Shown here one piece after another: positions 6,428 to 51,552 of a stretch of DNA of 64,000 nt. Each line of letters opens with the position of its first letter. Within the stretch, counting starts at the first letter, position 1. Where the stretch lies: assembly GCF_937770335.1 (NCBI RefSeq), contig NZ_CALJHY010000003.1, forward strand, positions 372,001 to 436,000, written 5' to 3'. The notes under the pieces are model-generated. The model saw nothing but the letters and a program-made list of their open reading frames with translations, was not told the DNA's origin and did not search any database. The translations under genes were made by a program, and so were the position numbers. This DNA comes from an uncultured Glaciecola sp. Lineage in GTDB: Bacteria; Pseudomonadota; Gammaproteobacteria; Enterobacterales; Alteromonadaceae.

Positions 6428-9169
6428 ATGAAAACAACTGTTTCTAGTTTACGCATCTTGCTTATCATTGTCACCGGGATTTGTGCGCAAGCAAATGCAC
6501 ATACTGATCACGACAAAGCGCGCTTTGTTGCTGAAAAAGGGGTTGACGCGGGTAATTGTAACAACCGATTTAGACCTTGCGCCTCTATAGGCTATGCGGC
6601 GCAACAGGCGAATAAAGGGGATGCTGTTTTAGTTGCACAGGGCACTTACGAATTAACAGAGTTTGCAGATATCTTTTATCTTATTAGCGATATTGTGCCT
6701 GCCTTGGGCGGTTTTCAAACCATAGATAACTATCAAGTCCAAAATCCAGCCGCTTTTACAACTACTTTGCAAGGTGTACCTCAACAATACGCCAATCAAT
6801 TATATGAAAAAGGCTTTAATGTTATTGTCGATACAAAGGGCATCGACTCTGCAACTGCACTCACTTTAGATAAAGGTCTATATGCCGTCAACGCCATGTA
6901 TCAATCACAAGCCGATGTAGCATGCGTTGATGGTTTCGCAGGTCAGTTTGGGTGCAACAAAATGTCTCTTCTTGCACACATTCCGGTGAGCGACTTTCCA
7001 ACCAATAGCGCCAGTGCTAATGATATTTGGGGTCATGTTGACCTTAACACGATGAAAGAATACGCATTGATAGGATTAAGAAGAGGCGTTGCATTAGTAG
7101 ACGTTTCCGCCCCTGTTAACCCCGTTATTATCAATGCCATTCAAGGTCAAAGTACCACTTGGCGCGATATTAAAGTGCTCCAATACTTCAATACGGATGC
7201 TAATAAATGGGAAGCATACGCTTATGCAACAGCCGACAATGCGTCTGAAGGCCTAACCATTATGAACTTGAGCAATCCCGATGATGGTTTAGTCTTGGTC
7301 AAGCGTGATATTACTGATGCAAATGCACACAATATTTATATTTCAAACGTCGATTATGGCTTAAATATCAGAAACTCGGCTGCTATTCCTCAGGCCCACA
7401 TTTTGGGTGCTAGCAACTTCGGGGGGGCATTACGCAGCTATTCCCTTTCAGATCCTGCAAACCCAGCCCCAAGCTTTTCTCCTTCTGGCGCAACACGTAA
7501 TGATTATGCGCACGACGCATCTTCACTTTTAGTCAATGATGAACGCGCCGATCGCGATTGTGTAAATGCCACATCTGCAGGGTGCACGGTTATGCTCGAC
7601 TTCAATGAGAGAAGCTTGCGTTTGTGGGATCATTCGAACCTAAAGAGTGTGGTCGAATTGTCATCCGTGAGTTATCCAAATGCCGAGTACACGCACTCAG
7701 GTTGGTGGAGTGAAGACCGACAATATGTAATTTTACATGACGAACTCGACGAGAGAAACAGAGGGTTGAATACGACAGTTCATATTTTTGATATTTCTGA
7801 CTTGAACGAGCCAACTCTCGTATCGACATGGCTTGGCCCAACACGTGCTGTCGATCATAATGGCTTTGTGCGTGGCAATAAATATTATATGTCAAATTAT
7901 GAACGCGGTGTCACCATACTCGACTTATCAGACCCATTAGCGCCTGCTGAATTAGGTTATTTCGACACTTTTCCTTCATCAACTAGCTCAGGATTTAATG
8001 GCGTTTGGGGAGTTTATCCCTATCTCCCTTCTGGCATTATCATCGCCAGTGATATCCAAGGTGGTTTGTATATTTTAAAAGACGAAACTAACAGTGCAGC
8101 AAAAGACGATATTAATTTCTCATCCGCTTTGTACGAAGTAACAGAGGGCGGCGTTGTTAATATATCGGTTATACGCTCAGGTACAAGAGCGGCTTCAGTT
8201 GATTATAAAATCATACGCGGGGCAACCAGCGGCACTGATTTTTTGGCCGAAGAGAGTGGCACTTTAACTTGGGATGCTGACGACACTATTGCAAAGAATA
8301 TCAGCATTGAGGCAATGGATGATGGCGACGGTGAAGGCATTGAAAGTCTATTCATTCGATTGGAAAATGCGTCAGCAAGCGCAGAACTAGCTACACCAAA
8401 CATGGCTAAAGTAGATATTCAAAGTTTGAGTAATCAAGCATCTTCTATCGTTCTAGCTGATGACACGTTCACTGTAAAAGAAACTGACGGCACACTTAGT
8501 CTTACCGTTATTCGTTCTGGCAACGCTGACCAATCGGCGTCTGTCGGCTTGCGGATTGAAGATGGTTCCGCACAAGCCGGCACTGACATTGCGCTGTCGA
8601 TAAGTTCACTCGAATGGGCAGCCGGTGAGTTAGGCGATCAAAATTTTACCCTTACGATCGTAAATGATGATGCTGTTGAGAATGACGAAAGCTTCGCTGT
8701 GGTTTTGGATAATCCTGAAAACGTCACTATTTCAGGCTCTACAAGAGTTGAGGTGACTATTCGTGACGACGATTCAAACCAAGCGCCTACAGTAAACACG
8801 GAAAGTAGTTTGAATGTGAACACGCGTCAGAGCGTTGCGTTAACCGCAGCAGCTACGGATCCTGAAGGCCAGAGTATGACTTTTGCTTGGGAGCAAACAT
8901 CAGGTACTAGCGTAACCTTAGCAAGTGCTGATAGTTTGTCAGCTAACTTTACGGCACCCGATACCGCTACTACCTTGGCGTTTACGTTCACAGCGACTGA
9001 CGACTTTGGCGTTGCATCGTCAATGAGCGTTAGCGTTAGTGTTGAAAACGCAGCGCCGGTATTTTTACCTGTGCCTGCAAGTAACCCTGACTCAAGTGGC
9101 GGTGCTATTTGGCTAATCAATATTTTACTACTATTAACAATAGTAAGAAGATTGAAAATCACAAAATAG
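6428..9169 (+). CDS. Choice-of-anchor B / LVIVD-repeat surface protein with Calx-beta-like domains and a GlyGly-CTERM-like C-terminus
   Basis: Signal peptide; WGHVDLNTMKEYALIGLRRGVALVDVSAP and similar repeats; Calx-beta-like DDGDGEGIESLFIRL and NDDAVENDESFAVVL; tail SSGGAIWLINILLLLTIVRRLKITK. Confidence 0.8.
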   Translation: MKTTVSSLRILLIIVTGICAQANAHTDHDKARFVAEKGVDAGNCNNRFRPCASIGYAAQQANKGDAVLVAQGTYELTEFADIFYLISDIVPALGGFQTIDNYQVQNPAAFTTTLQGVPQQYANQLYEKGFNVIVDTKGIDSATALTLDKGLYAVNAMYQSQADVACVDGFAGQFGCNKMSLLAHIPVSDFPTNSASANDIWGHVDLNTMKEYALIGLRRGVALVDVSAPVNPVIINAIQGQSTTWRDIKVLQYFNTDANKWEAYAYATADNASEGLTIMNLSNPDDGLVLVKRDITDANAHNIYISNVDYGLNIRNSAAIPQAHILGASNFGGALRSYSLSDPANPAPSFSPSGATRNDYAHDASSLLVNDERADRDCVNATSAGCTVMLDFNERSLRLWDHSNLKSVVELSSVSYPNAEYTHSGWWSEDRQYVILHDELDERNRGLNTTVHIFDISDLNEPTLVSTWLGPTRAVDHNGFVRGNKYYMSNYERGVTILDLSDPLAPAELGYFDTFPSSTSSGFNGVWGVYPYLPSGIIIASDIQGGLYILKDETNSAAKDDINFSSALYEVTEGGVVNISVIRSGTRAASVDYKIIRGATSGTDFLAEESGTLTWDADDTIAKNISIEAMDDGDGEGIESLFIRLENASASAELATPNMAKVDIQSLSNQASSIVLADDTFTVKETDGTLSLTVIRSGNADQSASVGLRIEDGSAQAGTDIALSISSLEWAAGELGDQNFTLTIVNDDAVENDESFAVVLDNPENVTISGSTRVEVTIRDDDSNQAPTVNTESSLNVNTRQSVALTAAATDPEGQSMTFAWEQTSGTSVTLASADSLSANFTAPDTATTLAFTFTATDDFGVASSMSVSVSVENAAPVFLPVPASNPDSSGGAIWLINILLLLTIVRRLKITK

Positions 9170-9431
9170 ACGCAATATACAAAGAGCGCATAGTAAAGAA
9201 TTAGATCATTGTCGTTATGCAGAAAATAAGGCTTCCTTTTACAATGCCTTTTTAGTTGCATAGTATATGTTAGTCAACCTCTGCGGTGAGCGCATATTGT
9301 GCGACGCTTTTGAAAAGTAATACAATGGCTTACTTGGTATTCGAATTTTTAATACGCTGGTTCACAATCAACCATAGAGTGACTGATACTAAGTTATTCT
9401 GAAAAGTAGAGCCTATAAATAGCTCCTTTAC

Positions 9432-9470
9432 ATAGATTTAATAGATAGATTTAATAGATAGATGTAATAA
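9432..9470. repeat. 13-bp tandem repeat (3 copies)
   Basis: atagatttaatag, atagatttaatag, atagatgtaataa. Confidence 0.8.
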
Positions 9471-9552
9471 ATCTTGTTTATATAGATTTAGTAACTAGCG
9501 CTAATAATAAACAGTAAATAATGCAACTCAATCAACCTAAAAAGGCATTTCA

Positions 9553-11376
9553 TTGAACAGCAGTACTTCAATACTTTCATGGCTATTTTCACATTTACGC
9601 CCTTATATGAGCAAAGTTGTTTTTGCAATAATCGCGCTTATTGTTGGCGCAATGTCTTGGTTAGTTTTAGGACAAGGCATCAAGATGGTGGTCGATCAAG
9701 GTTTCGTTGCGGGTGATGAAGCCATGCTACTCAATTCACTGGCACTGGTATTAGTTATCGCATTTATTGGCAGCATAGCCACCTACTGCCGATTTTATCT
9801 GATGGTTTGGTTAGGTGAGAGAGTATGCGCAGATATTCGCAAAGCCTTGTTTTCACATTTAGTCACTTTATCGCCAAGCTTTTTCGCGGAATCGCGCACA
9901 GGCGAAGTTATATCTCGATTTACCAGTGATACTACGTTGCTGCAATCGGTTGTTGGCACTGGTGTTTCGATGGCACTGCGCTCATTTGTTATGTTTATTG
10001 GTGCACTTGTTTTAATGGCAATTACTAGCACCACGTTAACCATTTATGTATTTATTGCCGTACCTATCATTTTATTACCGATAAAATTACTGGGTAAAAA
10101 AGTCAGGCATTTTGCCAAAGTAAGTCAAGATGATGTAGCGACTATGGGCACATTAATTGACGAAAGCCTGCACGAAATACACACATTACAATCATACAAT
10201 CACGAAAGCCAAAGCGTTGATAGCTTCGATGCTAGCGCAGAACAAATAATGACAAGTGCCTCAAAACGCATCCATTACCGTGCCCTCCTTATCGCTATGA
10301 TCATGTTTATCAGCTTAAGTTCTATATTTATTGTAGCGTGGGTTGGTGCATTGGATGTTATATCCGGAGCGATTACTCCAGGTGAACTTACCGCCTTCGT
10401 TTTTTACGCTGTACTCGCCGGTGCATCCATTGCAACCATAAGTGAAGTGATTGGCGATTTACAAAAAGCAGCCGGTGCGAGCGAACGTATAGTAGAATTG
10501 ATGAATACGGTATCTGAAATACCGCTCGAATCCTCTTTTTTAGACGTCACTGAAGATGAATTTGGGCCAGTTGAGAACCAATCAGTCAATGTAATAAATA
10601 CCACCGGTTTTAGAATTAACGAAAAAGCTTTGGTTGATGCTAATAAACCCATATTAACGCTTCATAACGTCGTGTTTAGCTATCCCAGTGTTCCTGAGAA
10701 ACAAATTATTAATGAAGTATCATTTAGTGTTATGCCTGGCCAAAAAGTGGCGATTGTCGGTCACAGTGGCGCGGGTAAATCCACCTTGTTTGATTTGCTT
10801 ATGCGCTTTTACGATATCGACTATGGTGAAATTTTTATTGGTGAGGCAACACAAAAAAGTATCAGCACATACGATATTCGCCGGCAATTTGCGCTCGTTC
10901 CTCAAGATGCAGTCATCTTTGCTACTACCGTTTTAGACAATATCCGTTTATCAAATCCACAAGCTAGCAAAGACGACGTAATTGAAGCGGCAAAGCTTGC
11001 CTTTGCACATGAGTTTATTTTGGATTTTGTGAACGGTTATGAAACCCAGTTAGGCGAGCGTGGCGTAAAACTCTCGGGCGGTCAAAAACAACGCATCGCT
11101 ATTGCCAGAGCAATTTTAGCAAAGCGCCCTATTCTGTTATTAGATGAAGCAACTAGTGCATTAGATGCTAGCAGTGAAAAATACGTCAAACAGGCTTTAG
11201 ATTCACTGATGACTAAAACGACCACATTAATCATTGCACACCGTTTATCCACAGTAATTAATGCTGATAATATTATTGTACTGGAAAAAGGCAAAGTAAT
11301 AGGACAAGGAAAGCATGTTGAGTTGATGGCGACGAGTCCAGTTTACAAGGAGTTTGTTGAATTGCAGTTGAGTTAA
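9553..11376 (+). CDS. ABC exporter, fused permease/ATPase (MsbA/lipid exporter-like)
   Basis: Six-TM N-terminus; Walker A GHSGAGKST; signature LSGGQKQRIAIARAIL; Walker B ILLLDEATSALD. Confidence 0.9.
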   Translation: MNSSTSILSWLFSHLRPYMSKVVFAIIALIVGAMSWLVLGQGIKMVVDQGFVAGDEAMLLNSLALVLVIAFIGSIATYCRFYLMVWLGERVCADIRKALFSHLVTLSPSFFAESRTGEVISRFTSDTTLLQSVVGTGVSMALRSFVMFIGALVLMAITSTTLTIYVFIAVPIILLPIKLLGKKVRHFAKVSQDDVATMGTLIDESLHEIHTLQSYNHESQSVDSFDASAEQIMTSASKRIHYRALLIAMIMFISLSSIFIVAWVGALDVISGAITPGELTAFVFYAVLAGASIATISEVIGDLQKAAGASERIVELMNTVSEIPLESSFLDVTEDEFGPVENQSVNVINTTGFRINEKALVDANKPILTLHNVVFSYPSVPEKQIINEVSFSVMPGQKVAIVGHSGAGKSTLFDLLMRFYDIDYGEIFIGEATQKSISTYDIRRQFALVPQDAVIFATTVLDNIRLSNPQASKDDVIEAAKLAFAHEFILDFVNGYETQLGERGVKLSGGQKQRIAIARAILAKRPILLLDEATSALDASSEKYVKQALDSLMTKTTTLIIAHRLSTVINADNIIVLEKGKVIGQGKHVELMATSPVYKEFVELQLS

Positions 11377-15347: not shown

Positions 15348-15592
15348 AATTATACTCCAAAATGCTTTCGTTTATCATAGCGATCATACTGCTAGAATTA
15401 CAGGCTTTTCAGACTCTCTTTTCAAACTTTATGTATAGATATTTCTTTGGAAAGCGCATATGATTGTTAGAAGTTTTTACAATTATTTAAGAGCGTAATA
15501 TTTTTATCTTATAAAACATAAGCTTAAATTAGGTACGCTTTTTGCTAATAGTAATAACAATAGCATTATTAAGTATTCAAGGAGCCCCCACA

Positions 15593-16267
15593 ATGGACAA
15601 CAATGAAACCAATACGACGCCTGAAGCTGGAAAGTCTAGACGCAGTTTCATTAAAAAATCGTCAATCGCCGCTGGCATAACAATCATACCAGCCAGCAAC
15701 GTGTGGGGCGCATGTAACGTTTCAGGTGTATCCGGCGGGTCTCAATCCGTTAATACAACATGCATTGTGACCCCATTCAGTGGCGGCCGTTCTCCTGGCA
15801 AATGGAAGCAGTTTTTAAAATATGCTCCTAAGGACGCAGACCTTAAGCAAATCGCGACGATATTGTCCGACGTGAACCACAAAGATATTTTTGGCAGTAG
15901 TGGCCAGAAAAAGACCGAGTTTTACTATCCAAAATTAAGAGATTTTATTTTTAGTAAAACAATAACAATTGTAGGCAATGGTATTGGCACGATTAGAGAC
16001 AAAGACATTAAGGTCGGAGATGCTGTGATAGGTCTTTTAGGACCTCTTGAAAAACACATAGCATGCACCTACTTAAATGGGTTATTTGGAATGAACTCAG
16101 GCCTGAGTGCGGAGTTTACTGGATTTGATGGCAACAATTTGTTCATAGAGCATATTTGGGGATCTGCTGAAATTAATGGGGCAAGCATGGTTAAATTAGA
16201 ATTGAAGGCTGCTTATGACAGCAAAAGCATTACAGAGGCAACGCTCAGTACCGTCCTCGGTATATAG
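15593..16267 (+). CDS. Tat-signal protein of unknown function, first gene of the PqqD-like/HprK-like/nucleotidyltransferase cassette
   Basis: Twin-arginine signal SRRSFIKKSSIAAGITIIPASNVWG; RBS AAGGAG upstream of ATG 15593; no known fold recognised. Confidence 0.8.
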   Translation: MDNNETNTTPEAGKSRRSFIKKSSIAAGITIIPASNVWGACNVSGVSGGSQSVNTTCIVTPFSGGRSPGKWKQFLKYAPKDADLKQIATILSDVNHKDIFGSSGQKKTEFYYPKLRDFIFSKTITIVGNGIGTIRDKDIKVGDAVIGLLGPLEKHIACTYLNGLFGMNSGLSAEFTGFDGNNLFIEHIWGSAEINGASMVKLELKAAYDSKSITEATLSTVLGI

Positions 16268-16303
16268 AGAGTAATAAATTAGAGATATTTACCAATACAA
16301 AAT

Positions 16304-16531
16304 ATGCAAACAACGGACACTCTCCTAATACATAGGCTGGCTGATAAGTCAGCCTTTGTTGTTTTTAATCGTTTAAATTGGCGCACCTATATCATCGGCT
16401 TCAATCAGGTCATCGAAAATTTAAATGCGGGTATTATAAAAAGTATTAGTTCGGAAGAATTTATTGCCCTGACCGCGAAAGAACAAATAGAGACATTGTT
16501 TAAAGCTGACTATTGGGACACTTTTAAATAA
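16304..16531 (+). CDS. PqqD-like small protein (HPr-rel-A system type)
   Basis: 75 aa; FVVFNRLNWRTYIIGFNQVIENLN resembles the PqqD/RRE beta-strand/helix pattern; stop is directly adjacent to the downstream kinase-like ATG. Confidence 0.7.
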   Translation: MQTTDTLLIHRLADKSAFVVFNRLNWRTYIIGFNQVIENLNAGIIKSISSEEFIALTAKEQIETLFKADYWDTFK

Positions 16532-17386
16532 ATGATTAGTTTGAATTCAGGCCAATATACCTATCGTATAAGAGGTGACATAGCGTCGGTCGAAGATGAA
16601 CTGACTCGCTTGTACCCGCACTCGTTAAATCATGACTTCGCCGTTGCAGACTTTGATATTGAAATACAGCAAACGAGCTTATTGAGAACCTTACTGCGCC
16701 CACAAGTAACGCTTAATATTGAAGGGCATAAACCCTTCAATCCTATTCATCCTTCCAAGCTCTTACCATCTATTGAATGGGCAATGAACTGGTGCGTTTC
16801 AGCTTACGATCACACTAAATTACTTATTCACTGTTCAGTCGCAGTAAAAAATGGCAAAGCTATATTATTTCCAGCTAAGTCAGGATCAGGTAAGTCGACC
16901 CTATCAGCCTATTTAGGGTTAAACGGTTGGCATTTATATTCTGACGAAATGGCCATCATTAATCTGAATACAGGTTATGTCGAACCGGTTTTTAGACCTG
17001 CATCATTAAAAAATGAATCAATTGAAATTATTAAGCCGTTTGTGCAGGCTGATGAGCATTATATGAGTCGCACCACCAAAGGCACTCACAAGGGTGATAT
17101 AGCACATGTAAGAACTATGTCTAAGGATGTTTTTGATAAGCTTGAGCCAAGCAAAATCGCTGCTATGTTATTTTTAGATTTCGATAAAAATAAGCGTTTT
17201 AATGTGTATGAAATTGATAAATCTATTGGCTTAGCTAAAATTATAACCAACGCCTTTAACTATAGTGTTATTGGCGAAGCGGCTTTTAGCATATTAGTTT
17301 CAATCGTTAATCAGGCAACCATATTAGAGGTTAGCTACGCCGAAATGGCTGATATTAAAGAACTCATCGGGGAGTTGGTGATATGA
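16532..17386 (+). CDS. HprK-related kinase (HPr-rel-A type)
   Basis: P-loop FPAKSGSGKSTLSAYLGLNGWHLYSDEMAIINL, as in HPr kinase/phosphorylases; compact operon context. Confidence 0.85.
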   Translation: MISLNSGQYTYRIRGDIASVEDELTRLYPHSLNHDFAVADFDIEIQQTSLLRTLLRPQVTLNIEGHKPFNPIHPSKLLPSIEWAMNWCVSAYDHTKLLIHCSVAVKNGKAILFPAKSGSGKSTLSAYLGLNGWHLYSDEMAIINLNTGYVEPVFRPASLKNESIEIIKPFVQADEHYMSRTTKGTHKGDIAHVRTMSKDVFDKLEPSKIAAMLFLDFDKNKRFNVYEIDKSIGLAKIITNAFNYSVIGEAAFSILVSIVNQATILEVSYAEMADIKELIGELVI

Positions 17387-18492
17387 CGCCAACCGGTATT
17401 TCAAAAACGTTGTTTTTAGCGATGCTTACGCAGAAAAAAAGTATCACCGACCTAGAACCTGAAGAATTAGACTCACTATTAAGAGCTACCATCGCAGCGC
17501 ATATGCATGGCGTATTGGCAAACACAGTAGACAAAACATTGTCGCTTTTATTGCCGCTGCCTCTATCTCGACATTTTGCATCGATACATACTTTTTCACT
17601 CGCACAAAAAAACCAGGTTGTTGCGTCTGCTAACTTGCTGTCAGCACAGCTATCGTCTGCTGGAATACCGGTTCTGTTGCTCAAAGGTGCAGCCTACATC
17701 CTTAGCAATAAACCTAATGCACAAGGTAGGCTAATTTCTGACATCGATATTTTAGTTCAACGAGAAGCATTAGCAATGGTCGAAAGTACACTACAAAAAA
17801 ATGGCTGGCGAGCTAAATCATTGAACGATTATGATGAAAAGTATTATAGAGAATGGTCGCATGAATTACCGCCCTACATACACAGCGAAACTGGTGTAAT
17901 CCTCGATATTCACCATAACCTAATTCCGCTGTCGTCAGGAAAAACCATCAATATTGCGCAAATTGAAGCAACAAAAGTGGTCGTTGGGAACAACCTATAT
18001 ATTCCAAGTGACGCCTATCTGATTCTTCATAGCGCAATACATTTGCTATTAAATGACGATACAGAAAAAGGCTTGAGGGACTGTTTTGACTTGCATTCAC
18101 TTATTCAAGGATATCTCGCATCAGAGACGCTCGATTCGTTAAGGGTGATTTTTATAGAAGCCAACTGTGAGACTGAATTTAGCATACTCATTCATTTGCT
18201 CAATCGAATTTTTAACAATGAATACAGCGAGATTGTATTGAATGGTGTTCATCGCTTATCTTGGCATGACCAGGTATTGGTTAATTCGCTGTATAGAACT
18301 ATTTGCCCGCGCACTGACTACCTGCTTGACAACAAGTCAGCGCTCGCAAGGCAACATGTTTATATGCACGGTCATTTAAGCAAGATGCCCTTCTTACTAT
18401 TTATTCAGCACATCTGCTATAAAGGTTACCGCTCTGCGGTTAAACGACTATTGGGTGAAACCTTTTTTAAATCTTTATCACCAAAAGAGTAA
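17383..18492 (+). CDS. Nucleotidyltransferase family protein (NTP_transf_5-like)
   Basis: VLLLKGAAYIL...GRLISDIDILV...DIHHNLIP; 4-nt ATGA overlap with the kinase-like gene. Confidence 0.85.
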   Translation: MTPTGISKTLFLAMLTQKKSITDLEPEELDSLLRATIAAHMHGVLANTVDKTLSLLLPLPLSRHFASIHTFSLAQKNQVVASANLLSAQLSSAGIPVLLLKGAAYILSNKPNAQGRLISDIDILVQREALAMVESTLQKNGWRAKSLNDYDEKYYREWSHELPPYIHSETGVILDIHHNLIPLSSGKTINIAQIEATKVVVGNNLYIPSDAYLILHSAIHLLLNDDTEKGLRDCFDLHSLIQGYLASETLDSLRVIFIEANCETEFSILIHLLNRIFNNEYSEIVLNGVHRLSWHDQVLVNSLYRTICPRTDYLLDNKSALARQHVYMHGHLSKMPFLLFIQHICYKGYRSAVKRLLGETFFKSLSPKE

Positions 18493-18560: not shown

Positions 18561-19367
18561 CTATAACGTTAAATCAACGGTCTTGGCTAGCTTACGCAGA
18601 TCCCTAATCGGTATAGCATAACTAATCCCACTTGGATTTGTTAAGGCCGACTCTTTGCCTTGTGATACAAATACTTTATTTATAATCGCAACGACTTCAT
18701 TATTATTACGATTAAAAACAGGGCTGCCACTGTTACCCGGATAGGCCGTCGCATCTAATTGATAAATCAAAAATGGCGTTTTAAGCCTATCTAGCATTTG
18801 CAGAGTTAACTGGTTTGCATTGCTAGCGGGATTAACATCAGGCGTAACCGCTGCAATAATTCCTTGATGTGTTGCTGGGTATAAACCTAAAACAGCGCCA
18901 ATAGGAAAACCGGTAAAGAAAACGGACGTTCCTGGGTCAACCAAACTATCACTTGCGAGCCTGAGCGCAGGCAACGTTTTATCAATAGACAAGATAGCAA
19001 TGTCATGCACCGGATCTATCGCTACAATTTTCATTTTATGGAGCGCCGGGTTTGGCCCAGTGCCACTTAATGCAACAAAATTTTGGACGATTGTGGGATC
19101 TAATTCTTTTGAGACCACATGGTAGTTAGTAACAATGTATTTGCCATTGCCTACCACAAAGCCCGTACCTAGTATCTGCGGTGCTTTGGATTCGATAGGA
19201 GCATAAATAGCAATACCAACTACTGAAGGCGCTATTTGTTTAATCGATTCAGGTAATGATTGGGCTTGTTGTGCCACCGCTATTGATGAAAAACACAAAC
19301 AAACTAGAGCGAAAACAATGCCTCCCCAATATCCATTTTTAGTTGCACTTCCTTTTTTTATTTGCAT
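18561..19367 (-). CDS. Trypsin-like (S1) serine protease, secreted
   Basis: Signal peptide; GTGFVVGNGKYIVTNYHVV; HDIAILSID; ATAYPGNSGSPVFN (His, Asp, Ser triad). Confidence 0.88.
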   Translation of the reverse strand: MQIKKGSATKNGYWGGIVFALVCLCFSSIAVAQQAQSLPESIKQIAPSVVGIAIYAPIESKAPQILGTGFVVGNGKYIVTNYHVVSKELDPTIVQNFVALSGTGPNPALHKMKIVAIDPVHDIAILSIDKTLPALRLASDSLVDPGTSVFFTGFPIGAVLGLYPATHQGIIAAVTPDVNPASNANQLTLQMLDRLKTPFLIYQLDATAYPGNSGSPVFNRNNNEVVAIINKVFVSQGKESALTNPSGISYAIPIRDLRKLAKTVDLTL

Positions 19368-20627: not shown

Positions 20628-23177
20628 ATGATTTATGCGTTTAGTTTTGATGGAACAAATGGAGTGCCCACCCCATTTTCAGTTGGGGTGCCTTTACCCA
20701 AGGGGACGTTTTGGCCTGAACAAAAATTACAAATAGTGACCGAATCTGGCGTAAACGTAATTTCGAATGTGACTCCAAGCTCTTTATGGCATGACAAATC
20801 TATTCGATGGTGTCAAATTGACGGCTACTCTGAGCAAAGCAACACGCAAAAGTATTTTATCACCAAAAGCCAAGCGACCTTATTCAAGAAACAAGACTGT
20901 GTATTTGAAAAAGATGGCACGTTTATCCTTAAATCAAAAAATTTAACGTTGCAGGTATCGACTGACTCTTTTTTATCACTAAAACAAGTCACTAACACGT
21001 CTAGTTTAGCACTTAAATTATCTCCCATATTCTCCGTGAAAGACGTCGAGACGAAGTTCACGTTGATTAATTCGACGCTGTTTACTAAAACAAGCTCGTG
21101 TAACAAGCCCCTTTACGCCACATTAAAGCAACAATATAAAACCGAGCTCAACACACCTAAAAAACATCTCTTCGTTACTGTGGAATATAAGCTTCACTAC
21201 CCGACTAACCAGCTAAAAATAAATTTATCTGTGCATAACCCCATGCCACTTATTCCGAACAATGATCAATGGGATCTTGGCAACGAAAGTAGTATTGAGC
21301 TAAGCCAGTTTGGATTAAAAATAGCATTACCTAAAGGCGGTTTCTCAGTCGCTAATACAAATGATGATAGTGACCAATTCAAAGCCATTGAGGAATGGGC
21401 GTTAGTCATAAATAACAGTGGTGGTGAAAACTGGTCATCTAAAAATCACATCGATAAAAATGGCGTTATTCCGCAAAAAGAACGCGGAGCCGTGATTATT
21501 GAAGTCGATAACAAGCAAACACATACCTATACAGAACTGCGACCGTCACTGGCATTTAACCTGTCGGATGAAGCACAATGCTTTGCAATTAATATTGATA
21601 ACATGTGGGAGAAATTCCCTCTGGAAGTATCCGTTTTACATGACCAAATGGATATCAATTTCTGTGAGAAAAAGACAGATTCTGGCATTGAATTGCAACC
21701 CGGTGAAATCAAATTTCATTCTCTCAATATCGATTTATTGCAGGCAGACGTCACCGCTAATGCTAAAACGCACGCTCCTGCGCCAACGCTTAACCCAGAT
21801 ATATTTTGCAACGCCAATACTATCCCGTGGTTAACCAAGTCAATTAGTCAAAGCCCGTTGAGCAGTATCGTTGATTTAGGACTGACGGGTGAAAGAAATT
21901 TCTTCGCTAAAAGAGAAGCAGTTGATGAATTTGGTTGGCGAAATTTTGGTGAGATTTATGCTGATCATGAAGCGGTTGGACACAAAGGGGACGATATTTT
22001 TGTCTCGCATTACAATAATCAGTATGACCCTTTGCAAGGTTTTCTAAAACAATGGGTAATTACAGGCAACCCCAAATGGAAACAATTAGCTGATGACCTC
22101 TTTGAGCACATTGTTAACATTGACATTTACCACACCGAGCTAGATAAACAGGAATATAATGGTGGGCTTTTTTGGCACACTGACCATTACGTAGAAGCTG
22201 AAACAGCGACTCATCGTACTTATTCAAAACGCCAACAAAAAGGTGTTTACGAGGATCATGCCGGCGGCGGTGGGCCAGGAAGCCATCATTGTTATACCAG
22301 TGGTCTAGCTTTGTATTATCAGCTAACTGGAAACGAGAGTGCAAAAAGCGCGGTCATCCAATTAGGCAACTGGATTACGTGTTTTTTCGAAGGCGACGGC
22401 ACCGTATTAGGCAGCTTGCTCCAATATCGAAACAGAGCGATTGTAAGAAACCCATTAACGGGTCGTTATCCTTTGGATAGAGGCGTCGCAAACTACGTAA
22501 ATGTGCTGCTTGATAGCTATGAACTCACGGCTAACCGCCAGTATGTGGCAAGAGCATCTAGCATCATTACCCAAACGTTTGACGCTACGGATATTATTGC
22601 TGAGCGAAATTTTCAGGATATTGAAAATACATGGTATTACATTGTTTTTATGCAGTCGGTTGCCAAGTATTTGTGGCTGTGCGAAACCGTTTATGGCATT
22701 GATCATGACTATGTCAGTATCAAAAAGTCATTTCTACATTACGTTGAATGGATTGCAACGCAAGAACAACCCTATTTAGTGAACCATCAGAAACTAGAAT
22801 ATCCGAATGACACGTGGACAGCACAAGACCTGCGAAAAATAATGGTACTCAACATTGCCTCAAATTATACTGACTCGCCGCACTTAAAGGAACTGATTCA
22901 ACAAAAAGTGGATAGTCTAAGGCATTATGTCGAAGACAAATTATGCAATAGTGACGAAAAAGATTTCACTCGGGTGTTAGCGTTAGTGATGCAAAATAAT
23001 ATTGGCGATATTAGTCAAATTGGCGTGACTAATAATGTTGAACCAGAGGTGACAATTGAGCATAGCACCGCCCCGTTTAGCTTTATCCGCTTCGCTGGCG
23101 GCTTCATCAAGCGTTACTCGTTAACTAGAGAATTTAAGCACCTACTTATTCGCTTTCCTCAATTGAGATTCAAGTAA
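20628..23177 (+). CDS. Exo-rhamnogalacturonan lyase-like/RIFT-barrel carbohydrate-active protein
   Basis: 849 aa; N-terminus FSFDGTNGVPTPFSVGVPLPKGTFWPEQ; HTDHYVEAETATHRTYSK...GGGGPGSHHCYTSGLALYYQLTGNE resembles PcRGLX/YetA-like lyases; no obvious signal peptide. Confidence 0.65.
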   Translation: MIYAFSFDGTNGVPTPFSVGVPLPKGTFWPEQKLQIVTESGVNVISNVTPSSLWHDKSIRWCQIDGYSEQSNTQKYFITKSQATLFKKQDCVFEKDGTFILKSKNLTLQVSTDSFLSLKQVTNTSSLALKLSPIFSVKDVETKFTLINSTLFTKTSSCNKPLYATLKQQYKTELNTPKKHLFVTVEYKLHYPTNQLKINLSVHNPMPLIPNNDQWDLGNESSIELSQFGLKIALPKGGFSVANTNDDSDQFKAIEEWALVINNSGGENWSSKNHIDKNGVIPQKERGAVIIEVDNKQTHTYTELRPSLAFNLSDEAQCFAINIDNMWEKFPLEVSVLHDQMDINFCEKKTDSGIELQPGEIKFHSLNIDLLQADVTANAKTHAPAPTLNPDIFCNANTIPWLTKSISQSPLSSIVDLGLTGERNFFAKREAVDEFGWRNFGEIYADHEAVGHKGDDIFVSHYNNQYDPLQGFLKQWVITGNPKWKQLADDLFEHIVNIDIYHTELDKQEYNGGLFWHTDHYVEAETATHRTYSKRQQKGVYEDHAGGGGPGSHHCYTSGLALYYQLTGNESAKSAVIQLGNWITCFFEGDGTVLGSLLQYRNRAIVRNPLTGRYPLDRGVANYVNVLLDSYELTANRQYVARASSIITQTFDATDIIAERNFQDIENTWYYIVFMQSVAKYLWLCETVYGIDHDYVSIKKSFLHYVEWIATQEQPYLVNHQKLEYPNDTWTAQDLRKIMVLNIASNYTDSPHLKELIQQKVDSLRHYVEDKLCNSDEKDFTRVLALVMQNNIGDISQIGVTNNVEPEVTIEHSTAPFSFIRFAGGFIKRYSLTREFKHLLIRFPQLRFK

Positions 23178-39795: not shown

Positions 39796-41688
39796 TTACT
39801 TCATATACCTATGCCACCACATTTCAAACATCAACATCGACCAAAGAATCGCACTATTATCCCTATGCTCATTTTGATGTTCATTCCATACTTTACTAAC
39901 TTGCTTTAAGTCAAAAATAGTAGCTAAACCTTCTACTTCATCAATAAGATATCGTTGCGCTATCTCTTTTATCTCAACTCTAAACCATTGCGCCAATGGC
40001 ACTGAAAAACCCATTTTCTTTCTATACAGAATATCGTCGTTTAGATATGGCTTAAACGCTTCTTTAAGAATATATTTTTTCTCTTTATTTTTGAATTTCA
40101 AATCTGAAGGTAATGTCGCAGCAAACTCTATAATTTCCTTATCTAATATAGGCGCCCTCACCTCCAATGAGTTAGCCATACTCATTCTATCAACCTTTAC
40201 TAAAATGCCGCCTGTAAGATAGGTTTTCATATCTGTATATAATATTTTGCTTAAATGATCTGGGCCATCTGCTTCGTTATATTTTTCTAGAGTAAAAGAC
40301 GATGGATGATAATGACCGAGTTGGTCTTTTACTTCCGTCGTCGCTAATTGGTCCCAAGCTTCATCTGTTATAAAGCTATTTGTAATATAAAATCCCATTT
40401 CAGGGCTGACACTTAAGCTCGTTAACAAGCTTTTAGCTCGTTTAAATGCGTCAAGGTTAACCAAACCGAAACCTTTGGCTAAACTCGGGAAAATGGTCCT
40501 TCGCATCCACTCTGGAAATTTGCTGCGTAGCTGGTTTTCAATATGATCTGTCGCGTACTTTTCATAGCCTGCAAACACTTCATCGCCACCATCACCGGCA
40601 ATGGCAACGGTTACCTCTTTTCTTGCTAGTTCTGAGACAAAAAACGTAGGAATAAGTGATGGATCCGCAAAGGGCTCATCAAAGAAACTAACGATATGTT
40701 CAATTGAATCAACCACATTCTGATGTACTAAAAATTCATGATGTTCAGTGCAGTATTGTTCTGCTACTGATTTAGCAAACTCGGCTTCATTGTACTTTTT
40801 ATTATCAAATGCAATGGTACACGTCTTAATAGGTTTATCTGATAACATTGACATTGTTGCAACAACACCACTGGAATCCACTCCACCACTTAAAAAGGCG
40901 CCCAACGGCACGTCACTGATCATACGTCTTTTCGTGGTTTCAGTTATTAGATTTTGTAGAATACTAACGTTCTGCTTTTCATCTAGTTCTGATTGCTGCG
41001 CAAAACTCAATTGCCAATACTTTTTAATTGTAATATTGCCCTGCTCAATGACCATATAATGCGCTGGCGGCAACTTATGAATGTGTTTGAAAATACTTTT
41101 AGGATCAGGAATGTACTGGTAAGCGAAAAAGTCATGAACGGCGTCTAATCGAATTTCTTTTTTGACACCTGGTAATGCTAAAATTGCTTTAATTTCAGAA
41201 CCAAAAGCAAACTTTTCAAATCCTTGATCTTCTTCTTGATAATAATAAAGTGGCTTCTTACCTAGACGGTCTCTAGCGATAAAAAGCTTATTTAGCCTTT
41301 TATCCCATAATGCGAAGGCAAACATACCGTTTAATTTTTCTAAACAATCAACACCGAGCTTTTCATAGAGCTTAATAATCACTTCGGTATCTGTACCAGA
41401 ACGAAAACTGACACCTTCTTGCTCTAAGTCTTTCTTAAGCTCTAAAAAATTGTAAATTTCGCCGTTAAAAACAATAACCACGTTTTCATCATCAGAAAAC
41501 ATGGGTTGATTACCTGCTTCTGATAAATCAAGAATACTTAAGCGTCTGTGACAAAGACCAACGGAATTATCCAAATACTCACCATGAGCATCAGGCCCTC
41601 GATGAAAGATAGCGTTGCCCATCGCGACAAGATCATTTGTCGTTAAATCTTCATAATTTTTCGTTAAGAAACCAGCAATACCGCACAT
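39796..41688 (-). CDS. asnB: Asparagine synthase (glutamine-hydrolyzing), likely XrtA-associated amidotransferase
   Basis: MCGIAGFL; HRGPDAHGEY; FNGEIYNF; GAFLSGGVDSSGVVATMS. Confidence 0.92.
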   Translation of the reverse strand: MCGIAGFLTKNYEDLTTNDLVAMGNAIFHRGPDAHGEYLDNSVGLCHRRLSILDLSEAGNQPMFSDDENVVIVFNGEIYNFLELKKDLEQEGVSFRSGTDTEVIIKLYEKLGVDCLEKLNGMFAFALWDKRLNKLFIARDRLGKKPLYYYQEEDQGFEKFAFGSEIKAILALPGVKKEIRLDAVHDFFAYQYIPDPKSIFKHIHKLPPAHYMVIEQGNITIKKYWQLSFAQQSELDEKQNVSILQNLITETTKRRMISDVPLGAFLSGGVDSSGVVATMSMLSDKPIKTCTIAFDNKKYNEAEFAKSVAEQYCTEHHEFLVHQNVVDSIEHIVSFFDEPFADPSLIPTFFVSELARKEVTVAIAGDGGDEVFAGYEKYATDHIENQLRSKFPEWMRRTIFPSLAKGFGLVNLDAFKRAKSLLTSLSVSPEMGFYITNSFITDEAWDQLATTEVKDQLGHYHPSSFTLEKYNEADGPDHLSKILYTDMKTYLTGGILVKVDRMSMANSLEVRAPILDKEIIEFAATLPSDLKFKNKEKKYILKEAFKPYLNDDILYRKKMGFSVPLAQWFRVEIKEIAQRYLIDEVEGLATIFDLKQVSKVWNEHQNEHRDNSAILWSMLMFEMWWHRYMK

Positions 41689-50004: not shown

Positions 50005-51552
50005 TTAATTTGCATTCCTTGCTTCAAAACCAGCTTGAAGCGCATTGATTGCCTGAGCTAAAACTGGCTTTATACTGTCTTCATTAAGTTCAGCACTAGC
50101 AGAAATAGCCAAGAAAACCCCATCGTATGGCTTGCCTTGCAATTTCAACCATACTTGATACAGCTTGGCTCTTTTAGTGTCGGTGAATACAATGCCATTA
50201 ATGATATATAAATGATAAACACTGACTTGTTCACCTGAACCATTCTTTAAAAGCATATTATTGATGCGCAAATTATCAGCTAGTACCTCAGTACGATTAC
50301 CAGCCAAACTCCACCTTTTTTCACCAAAAATATCATTCTGAGTGTTAATTAACTCGCCATCCGTACCATCATAATACGCTGTAAAATAGACAAAATTACC
50401 ACTTTCATACTGTATAGTGAGGAAGTTAGCGCTAGTTGAGCCTTTGAATTCAGGCTGCCAGGTAGATAGCAAATTGCCCTGCTGGGCAAAGTTGAACGGA
50501 AGTTGGAATTCAGGGTGAATAGGAGCAACGTTCCCTGCTGAGCTAATTGAAATAGACTTTGTAATACCTACTACAATTATTATCGCAACAACAAATGCCT
50601 TTAATGCGATGGTTTTGAATCCCTCAATAGTGCTGACTCCGGAGTCTACTTCTGCGCTATCAACATCGACTGGTTGGTCGTCGGCCTTTTCTTGCTTTAA
50701 AATATAACGTTTTTCAAAACGGCGAATTACTTCACCAATGCCTAATAAGCAAACAATCACGAAGGCAAAAAAGAACCAGCCGTATATTAAGTGATCAGCA
50801 CCAACAGCATGCTTCATATCGCTAGCGTAACCAATCATAATGATGCCAAAAACACGCACCGCATTAGCGAGAATTGGAAAAATAATTGACAGCAATACAA
50901 AACCAACACGCGTCGTCATGCGCTTCAAGTTCATGTAAGCGTACAAATTACCCAACACAACCGAGGCGATTAAAAAGCTCACTCCCGAACAAGCTTCGGC
51001 AACTAAAAAGCGACCTTGGGGGATTTCTAAAAACAAGCCCGAACGATATAGAGGAACGCCAGTCCATGACACCATTTCTACTGAAATATCAGCGGTTATT
51101 TCTTGTAAAAATGGGATAAGTTCTTCGCCAAAAGGAATAGCAAATAGCATAAAACTGAGTGGAAAAATAATTTGTTTCGTTATTCGGTTACCCAAATAAA
51201 ACCAAATAAGGGTTGGCAGTAACGAAAACATCGCCGCATGCTGAAATAACTGAATATCCCCTGCAACGCCAATCACATATAAAAGCACTTGCAAGAAAAT
51301 GAACGGCAAAGCTAGTAGCGTGCACTCACGAGCACGCCAATTAATCTCGTTCTTTTTTTCCCAAATGAGATATAAACTGACCGGCAACACAAAAAAGCAA
51401 TGGTTGAAAATTTCTGATATGTACCAAATTTTTACTGCGGATACCAAGCCTTGAAACGTCAAACCTATCCATAAGCAAAGAAGCACGGCCCCAAAAGCCC
51501 AATTAATAGTTTGGCTGCCATTTTCATGAACTGCCAGTTCCTTATTTAGCAT
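50005..51552 (-). CDS. xrtA: Exosortase A with C-terminal EpsI domain
   Basis: Multi-TM with VAEACSGVSFLIAS (Cys), ILANAVRVFGIIMIGY (Arg), GADHLIYGWFFF (His); C-terminal periplasmic EpsI-like domain (FTAYYDGTDGELINTQNDIFGEKRW). Confidence 0.92.
   Translation of the reverse strand: MLNKELAVHENGSQTINWAFGAVLLCLWIGLTFQGLVSAVKIWYISEIFNHCFFVLPVSLYLIWEKKNEINWRARECTLLALPFIFLQVLLYVIGVAGDIQLFQHAAMFSLLPTLIWFYLGNRITKQIIFPLSFMLFAIPFGEELIPFLQEITADISVEMVSWTGVPLYRSGLFLEIPQGRFLVAEACSGVSFLIASVVLGNLYAYMNLKRMTTRVGFVLLSIIFPILANAVRVFGIIMIGYASDMKHAVGADHLIYGWFFFAFVIVCLLGIGEVIRRFEKRYILKQEKADDQPVDVDSAEVDSGVSTIEGFKTIALKAFVVAIIIVVGITKSISISSAGNVAPIHPEFQLPFNFAQQGNLLSTWQPEFKGSTSANFLTIQYESGNFVYFTAYYDGTDGELINTQNDIFGEKRWSLAGNRTEVLADNLRINNMLLKNGSGEQVSVYHLYIINGIVFTDTKRAKLYQVWLKLQGKPYDGVFLAISASAELNEDSIKPVLAQAINALQAGFEARNAN

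Follow-up and report, generated by a model that had tools for sequence, protein, structure and literature searches.

A kinase and nucleotidyltransferase cassette with a Tat-exported protein as its predicted substrate in a relative of Glaciecola sp. KUL10

Which molecule is modified by an HprK-like kinase and a nucleotidyltransferase whose genes follow those of a Tat-exported protein and of a small PqqD-like protein? The question is raised by a locus found in a genome of the Alteromonadaceae, a relative of Glaciecola sp. KUL10, within a stretch of 64,000 nucleotides that was analysed as a whole and is hereafter called the window. Checking the ORFs of the window confirmed four tightly packed genes on the forward strand between positions 15593 and 18492 (Table 1). 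The 75-aa ORF ends with a TAA codon (16529-16531) that is directly followed by the kinase ATG at 16532, and the kinase and nucleotidyltransferase genes overlap by an ATGA at 17383-17386, exactly as the original prediction had described this co-directional arrangement. The Tat protein had been given there as having 241 aa or less; the best start is the ATG at 15593, which is preceded by an AGGAG at 15580-15584 and gives 224 aa, while the 241-aa form is obtained only by extension to a TTG start.

Table 1. Cassette genes, sequence elements and neighbouring genes in the window.
Feature	Position	Strand	Basis or remark
Tat-exported protein, 224 aa, type I, predicted substrate	15593..16267	+	Homologues occupy the same cassette slot
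Landmarks of this Tat protein			RR at residues 16-17; C-x-x-S-G at 41-45; GGRSPGKWK; YLNGLFG
Twin-arginine signal RRSFIKKSSIAAGITIIPASNVWG	15638..15709	+	Proposed double use as RRE-docking leader
C41-N-V-S44, conserved C-x-x-S motif	15713..15724	+	Ser44 predicted acceptor (inference)
75-aa protein, treated as divergent PqqD-like (RRE)	16304..16531	+	TIGR04353 slot, hhalign, low-confidence model
HprK-related kinase A	16532..17386	+	TIGR04352, 253.4 bits; conservation in 79 kinases
Nucleotidyltransferase-like protein (NTP_transf_5)	17383..18492	+	PF14907, 131 bits; conservation in 62 homologues
Trypsin-like (HtrA-type) protease, secreted	18561..19367	-	PF13365
MsbA-type ABC exporter gene	9553..11376		
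849-aa ORF	20628..23177		
Amidotransferase	39796..41688		
Exosortase A	50005..51552		

Profile searches support the identity previously proposed for both enzymes: the kinase scores 253.4 bits with the NCBIfam equivalog model TIGR04352 (HprK_rel_A; cut-off 200) and the nucleotidyltransferase 131 bits with PF14907 (cut-off 31.2). Residues expected to be catalytic are conserved in both. The P-loop of the kinase (GSGKST, residues 118-123) as well as His100, Asp138 and Glu139 were found to be invariant or nearly so in 79 kinases, as were Arg116, Asp120 and Asp122 of the nucleotidyltransferase in 62 homologues; a PF14907 protein was present within the fetched flanks at 62 loci, as compared with 79 kinase loci. 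Searching PDB sequences with the kinase returned nothing useful, and phosphorylation, nucleotidylation and hexosylation cannot be told apart from such data.

The occurrence of the cassette was then assessed in two samples. In the first, composed of 274 class-level genomes in which a kinase was counted if above the TIGR04352 cut-off, 27 genomes were positive and a Tat protein adjoins the kinase in 26 of them, with the contig of the remaining one ending too early; 21 of these neighbours, recognised by profile search, are of the type I defined below and the other five are of type II. In the second, the kinase occurs in 51 out of 299 genomes of the phylum, and in 41 of the 47 further loci that were read for neighbours a Tat gene adjoins that of the PqqD protein or of the kinase. 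Five loci (L155, L156, L162, L170 and L177) possess a kinase above the cut-off but, within the fetched flanks, neither a PqqD nor a Tat gene, and one (L185) has a PqqD gene with no Tat protein found. At another locus (L153), the kinase gene is oriented divergently from those of Tat and PqqD, which indicates that the linkage is more than operon read-through. Conservation of the Tat gene beside the kinase had been set beforehand as a test of the prediction, and it held. The cassette is more than a local peculiarity, and its recurrence across the phylum exceeds what is expected by chance. This observed adjacency designates the Tat protein as a component of the cassette and, as far as can be predicted, very likely as its substrate, so that the unseen peptide that had been considered as an alternative is not needed. 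Adjacency counts were preferred over the mere presence of a type I Tat protein in the genome (23 of the 27 kinase genomes versus 6 of the 247 others) because some of the matches behind the latter are distant or non-adjacent. In the cassette of Catenovulum sediminis (L058, positions 9000-9739), the Tat gene is split across two frames by a frameshift or a sequencing error; the PqqD-like, kinase and nucleotidyltransferase genes nonetheless remain open.

In profile searches, the window Tat protein shows a weak resemblance to TAT_signal_seq, below the cut-off (13.7 versus 16.7 bits), and matched no other family. Behind a common leader, the cassette Tat proteins fall into two mature families that are unrelated (hhalign probability 0.1%) and that split along the kinase tree, type II emerging within type I. 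In the alignment, type I mature parts have C-[TSN]-x-S-G-x-x-SGN close to the beginning, as well as PGYWK and, late in the sequence, LLN. Type II proteins have about 125-190 aa counted from the arginines and most terminate in [ST]C[WFL]xS[FLI]; two of these precursors are almost entirely leader, with ca. 20 (L163, a precursor of 46 residues) and ca. 12 (L092) residues after the signal, in which the Cys/Ser motif is contained. A lipoprotein reading of the Cys that follows the signal was rejected because no lipobox is present and the spacing between the signal end and this Cys is variable, from about 0 to 8 residues. Finally, the type I mature domain (CTPGYWK ... LLNA ... GCPL) was also detected in larger secreted proteins devoid of a Tat signal (L101, 1446-2315; L102, 6714-8150), where it is not covered by any Pfam or NCBIfam model.

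The common leader carries a signature of its own. Of 27 cassette signals, 23 have a proline at RR+9 to RR+13, in the hydrophobic core, versus none of 30 other Tat signals taken from ten of the same genomes. This Pro occurs in none of the seven signals of the window's group plus its look-alike L049, and the window leader has an Ala in place of the Pro at -13. Leaders outside this group follow the pattern RRxxxK...APVIMTLxSxPxxG/A and, in all 22 signals that satisfy the stricter motif, a plausible cleavage site (-3/-1 rule) is located 13 residues past the Pro. The RRE of the linear polyphosphorylated peptides (LPP) of Bacillota grips leader residues Y-16, P-13 and V-11 (Popov et al. 2026, PMC13381572). 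Relatives of the cassette share this register, Pro at -13 and a hydrophobic residue at -11, in the form P-x-hydrophobic and mostly without the Tyr; the LPP motif YxxPxV is absent from the window leader, which has no Pro at that place. Y-16 was seen only in short Tat proteins of divergent kinases: three of these (57-87 aa), adjoining divergent HprK-like kinases (L098, 6446-6709; L099, 4576-4749 and 6212-6391), have signals that read YxAPVV, in keeping with Y-16, P-13 and V-11, and could represent precursors of peptides that a sister system exports through Tat. For the PqqD-like protein of L098 the nearest model is of lasso type, with a score below its cut-off. The best reading of the cassette leaders is that the Tat signal serves at the same time as a RiPP leader, no chemistry having been shown.

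The partner proposed for this leader is the 75-aa product, which had been predicted to be PqqD-like. At the sequence level, this holds for relatives in the same slot, of which those of L039, L163 and L047 score 54.7, 57.1 and 36.6 bits with TIGR04353 (PqqD_rel_X; cut-off 35) and that of L042 falls slightly short at 33.1 bits, whereas the window protein matched no PqqD model in profile searches, TIGR04353 included, and the other Alteromonadaceae versions have no TIGR04353 match either. When the Alteromonadaceae group was compared to its canonical neighbours by hhalign, a P value of 1.6e-4 was obtained with a probability of just 51%. An RRE or PqqD fold is a winged helix with a three-stranded sheet and three helices; AlphaFold models of the 75-aa protein place three strands ahead of the helices, which is the right order, but their confidence is low (pLDDT 64-65). 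Foldseek found no significant PDB match for two of these low-confidence models, and searching PDB sequences with an alignment of canonical PqqD proteins was of no help either. The protein is treated here as divergent PqqD-like on the basis of its position and weak homology, its fold being undemonstrated. A rank test further suggested that PqqD scores are weaker where the leader lacks Pro (p 2e-4), which is a mere hint since it is confounded by ancestry and five leaders were tallied as Pro-less because their Pro lies just outside the positions considered.

A second feature is common to the two families. Of 71 mature parts, 62 contain C-x-x-S and nine lack it, the motif being placed close to the N-terminus in type I proteins and close to the C-terminus in those of type II; 1000 shuffles gave a mean of 21.8 and a maximum of 33, and none of the other C-to-S spacings from 0 to 7 exceeded 34. 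The tests of this motif and of the leader motif were both devised post hoc, with the alignments already seen, and the shuffle and Fisher figures overstate significance because homologous substrates are not independent. By analogy, the Ser is the likelier phosphorylation target, since LppK phosphorylates Ser3 of LppA (PMC13381572) and paeninodin-type kinases target a C-terminal Ser (PMC9266682). Alternatively, C-x-x-S might be a metal site or a structural motif.

These data also bear on another role for the PqqD-like protein, that of a Tat-signal chaperone, with the kinase and nucleotidyltransferase regulating its hold or acting on the chaperone itself and the mature protein remaining unmodified. 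Dedicated proofreading chaperones that bind Tat signals are established (TorD, NarJ), and the conserved part common to both substrate families is indeed the signal peptide. This explanation is nevertheless unlikely: it does not account for the presence of C-x-x-S in mature proteins that are unrelated and carry it at opposite ends, nor for precursors with only 12-20 residues beyond the leader, which offer nothing to fold, and both enzymes have relatives that act on peptides brought to them by an RRE.

When compared to characterised systems, the cassette resembles LPP loci in combining a discrete RRE protein, an HprK-like kinase and an NTP transferase, in precursors made of a conserved N-terminal leader and a variable remainder, and in a Ser near the cleavage site, phosphorylated in LPP and inferred here. 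Surface-polysaccharide genes are nearby in both, LPP loci being situated in capsule regions or near such genes (PMC13381572). It differs in its Pseudomonadota hosts, in a leader that is a Tat signal, in the existence of two families of mature substrates of up to ca. 200 aa, and in lacking a dedicated SipW-like peptidase (LppS) or a conserved MsbA-like exporter. No TIGR02228 match to a SipW-like signal peptidase exists anywhere in the genome; an MsbA-type gene lies 4 kb upstream of the cassette and is shared with Glaciecola KUL10, where it is likewise beside the cassette, with none seen at the other loci whose neighbours were listed. Identity with LPP was rejected on the missing YxxPxV and SipW-like peptidase. 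With paeninodin and pseudomycoidin, the cassette shares the HprK-like kinase, the nucleotidyltransferase-like enzyme and a PqqD-type (B1) protein, in lasso systems for which phosphorylation and hexosylation of Ser have been demonstrated: PsmK phosphorylates pseudomycoidin, and PsmN, which offers the closest tested chemistry for the nucleotidyltransferase, either puts hexoses on the resulting phosphoserine or allows an enzyme of the host to add them (PMC9266682). Having neither a macrolactam cyclase (no PF13471 match above cut-off in the genome) nor a B2 leader peptidase, and showing no sign of a lasso ring, it was not retained as a lasso peptide cluster. The working mode of the cassette, judged by analogy, probably resembles that of these phosphopeptide systems.

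By its kinase, above the equivalog cut-off, the window cassette joins the HPr-rel-A families (TIGR04352/TIGR04353), in which its relatives' PqqD proteins also exceed theirs; in profile terms its own PqqD component fails the model. The family names specify no substrate, and the Tat substrates, the leader motif and C-x-x-S are added here. Literature searches for HPr-rel-A, the TIGR accessions or PqqD with exosortase found no paper on the system, and neither RRE-Finder nor a 2025 RRE survey mentions HPr-rel-A or these accessions.

The surroundings of the cassette could suggest a substrate of a different nature. Exosortase occurs in 25 of the 27 kinase genomes versus 59 of the 247 others, ancestry being uncontrolled and the exosortase often distant from the cassette; in the window, polysaccharide genes start right after the cassette, which is close to a polysaccharide locus with exosortase A. 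Furthermore, of the five kinases without PqqD or Tat genes, at least those of L156 and L170 adjoin glycosyltransferase or sugar-nucleotide genes. The kinase and nucleotidyltransferase could then target a small molecule or an exopolysaccharide intermediate, with the Tat protein as an unmodified periplasmic partner in the same surface pathway, but this is improbable in view of the near-universal linkage to Tat and PqqD-type genes, the leader motif and the tiny size of some precursors. An ordinary HPr kinase, related to those of catabolite control and acting on HPr or another PTS protein, is highly implausible and was discarded: its remote kinship to HprK by name and P-loop is countered by an equivalog model separate from that of HPr(Ser) kinase and by Tat, PqqD-like and nucleotidyltransferase neighbours, PTS genes being absent from the cassette context.

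The explanation preferred here, and considered reasonably probable, is that of an uncharacterised HPr-rel-A cassette in which the Tat protein is decorated and then exported in four steps. In the cytoplasm, the PqqD-like RRE protein would bind the Tat signal of the substrate through a docking motif in the hydrophobic core; the HprK-like kinase would phosphorylate the Ser of C-x-x-S (Ser44 in the window); the PF14907 enzyme would attach a nucleotide or a sugar to this phosphate; and the Tat system would export the modified protein, the signal being removed by signal peptidase. What the analysis establishes is the gene linkage, the two substrate families with their common leader, C-x-x-S and the conservation of catalytic residues; all chemical steps, their order, the acceptor residue and any biological role are inferred. 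The mechanism originally put forward, delivery by the PqqD-like protein for phosphorylation or nucleotidylation before export, gains support from the common leader, from C-x-x-S and from the lasso and LPP analogy, and lacks biochemical demonstration. Against the preferred explanation stand the absence of Pro from the window leader, the 75-aa protein without a PqqD model match and with low-confidence fold models, the five phylum loci where no PqqD or Tat gene was seen near the kinase, the one with PqqD but no Tat protein found, the nine substrates that lack C-x-x-S and LppN, the nucleotidyltransferase of LPP, having had no detectable effect in a heterologous host (PMC13381572). The broader proposal, for which the balance is even, is that of a widespread Pseudomonadota system associated with exosortase-bearing genomes in which a Tat signal serves as RiPP leader and an RRE directs kinase and nucleotidyltransferase to C-x-x-S in proteins of up to ca. 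200 aa, resulting in a phosphate-linked decoration that is possibly a sugar tie to surface polysaccharide. If true, a single sequence would be both export signal and enzyme-recruiting leader, phosphopeptide-type modification would extend beyond the peptides of Bacillota to protein-sized secreted substrates in Pseudomonadota, where the cassette would be the equivalent of phosphopeptide RiPPs (LPPs and lasso peptides of paeninodin type) for substrates that are exported by Tat and mostly of protein size, and exosortase genomes would possess a new kind of surface-protein decoration. With a proposed substrate, docking region and acceptor residue, the HPr-rel-A system becomes directly testable.

Other genes of the window deserve mention. 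The 849-aa ORF at the edge of the polysaccharide region has no NCBIfam match, and the amidotransferase is closest to the XrtA/PEP-CTERM type, though below that cut-off. The secreted trypsin-like protease encoded downstream of the window cassette often has counterparts beside type I cassettes: homologues were located close to the kinase at 18 of the other loci fetched (one being a duplicate), and this enzyme is possibly a processing protease.
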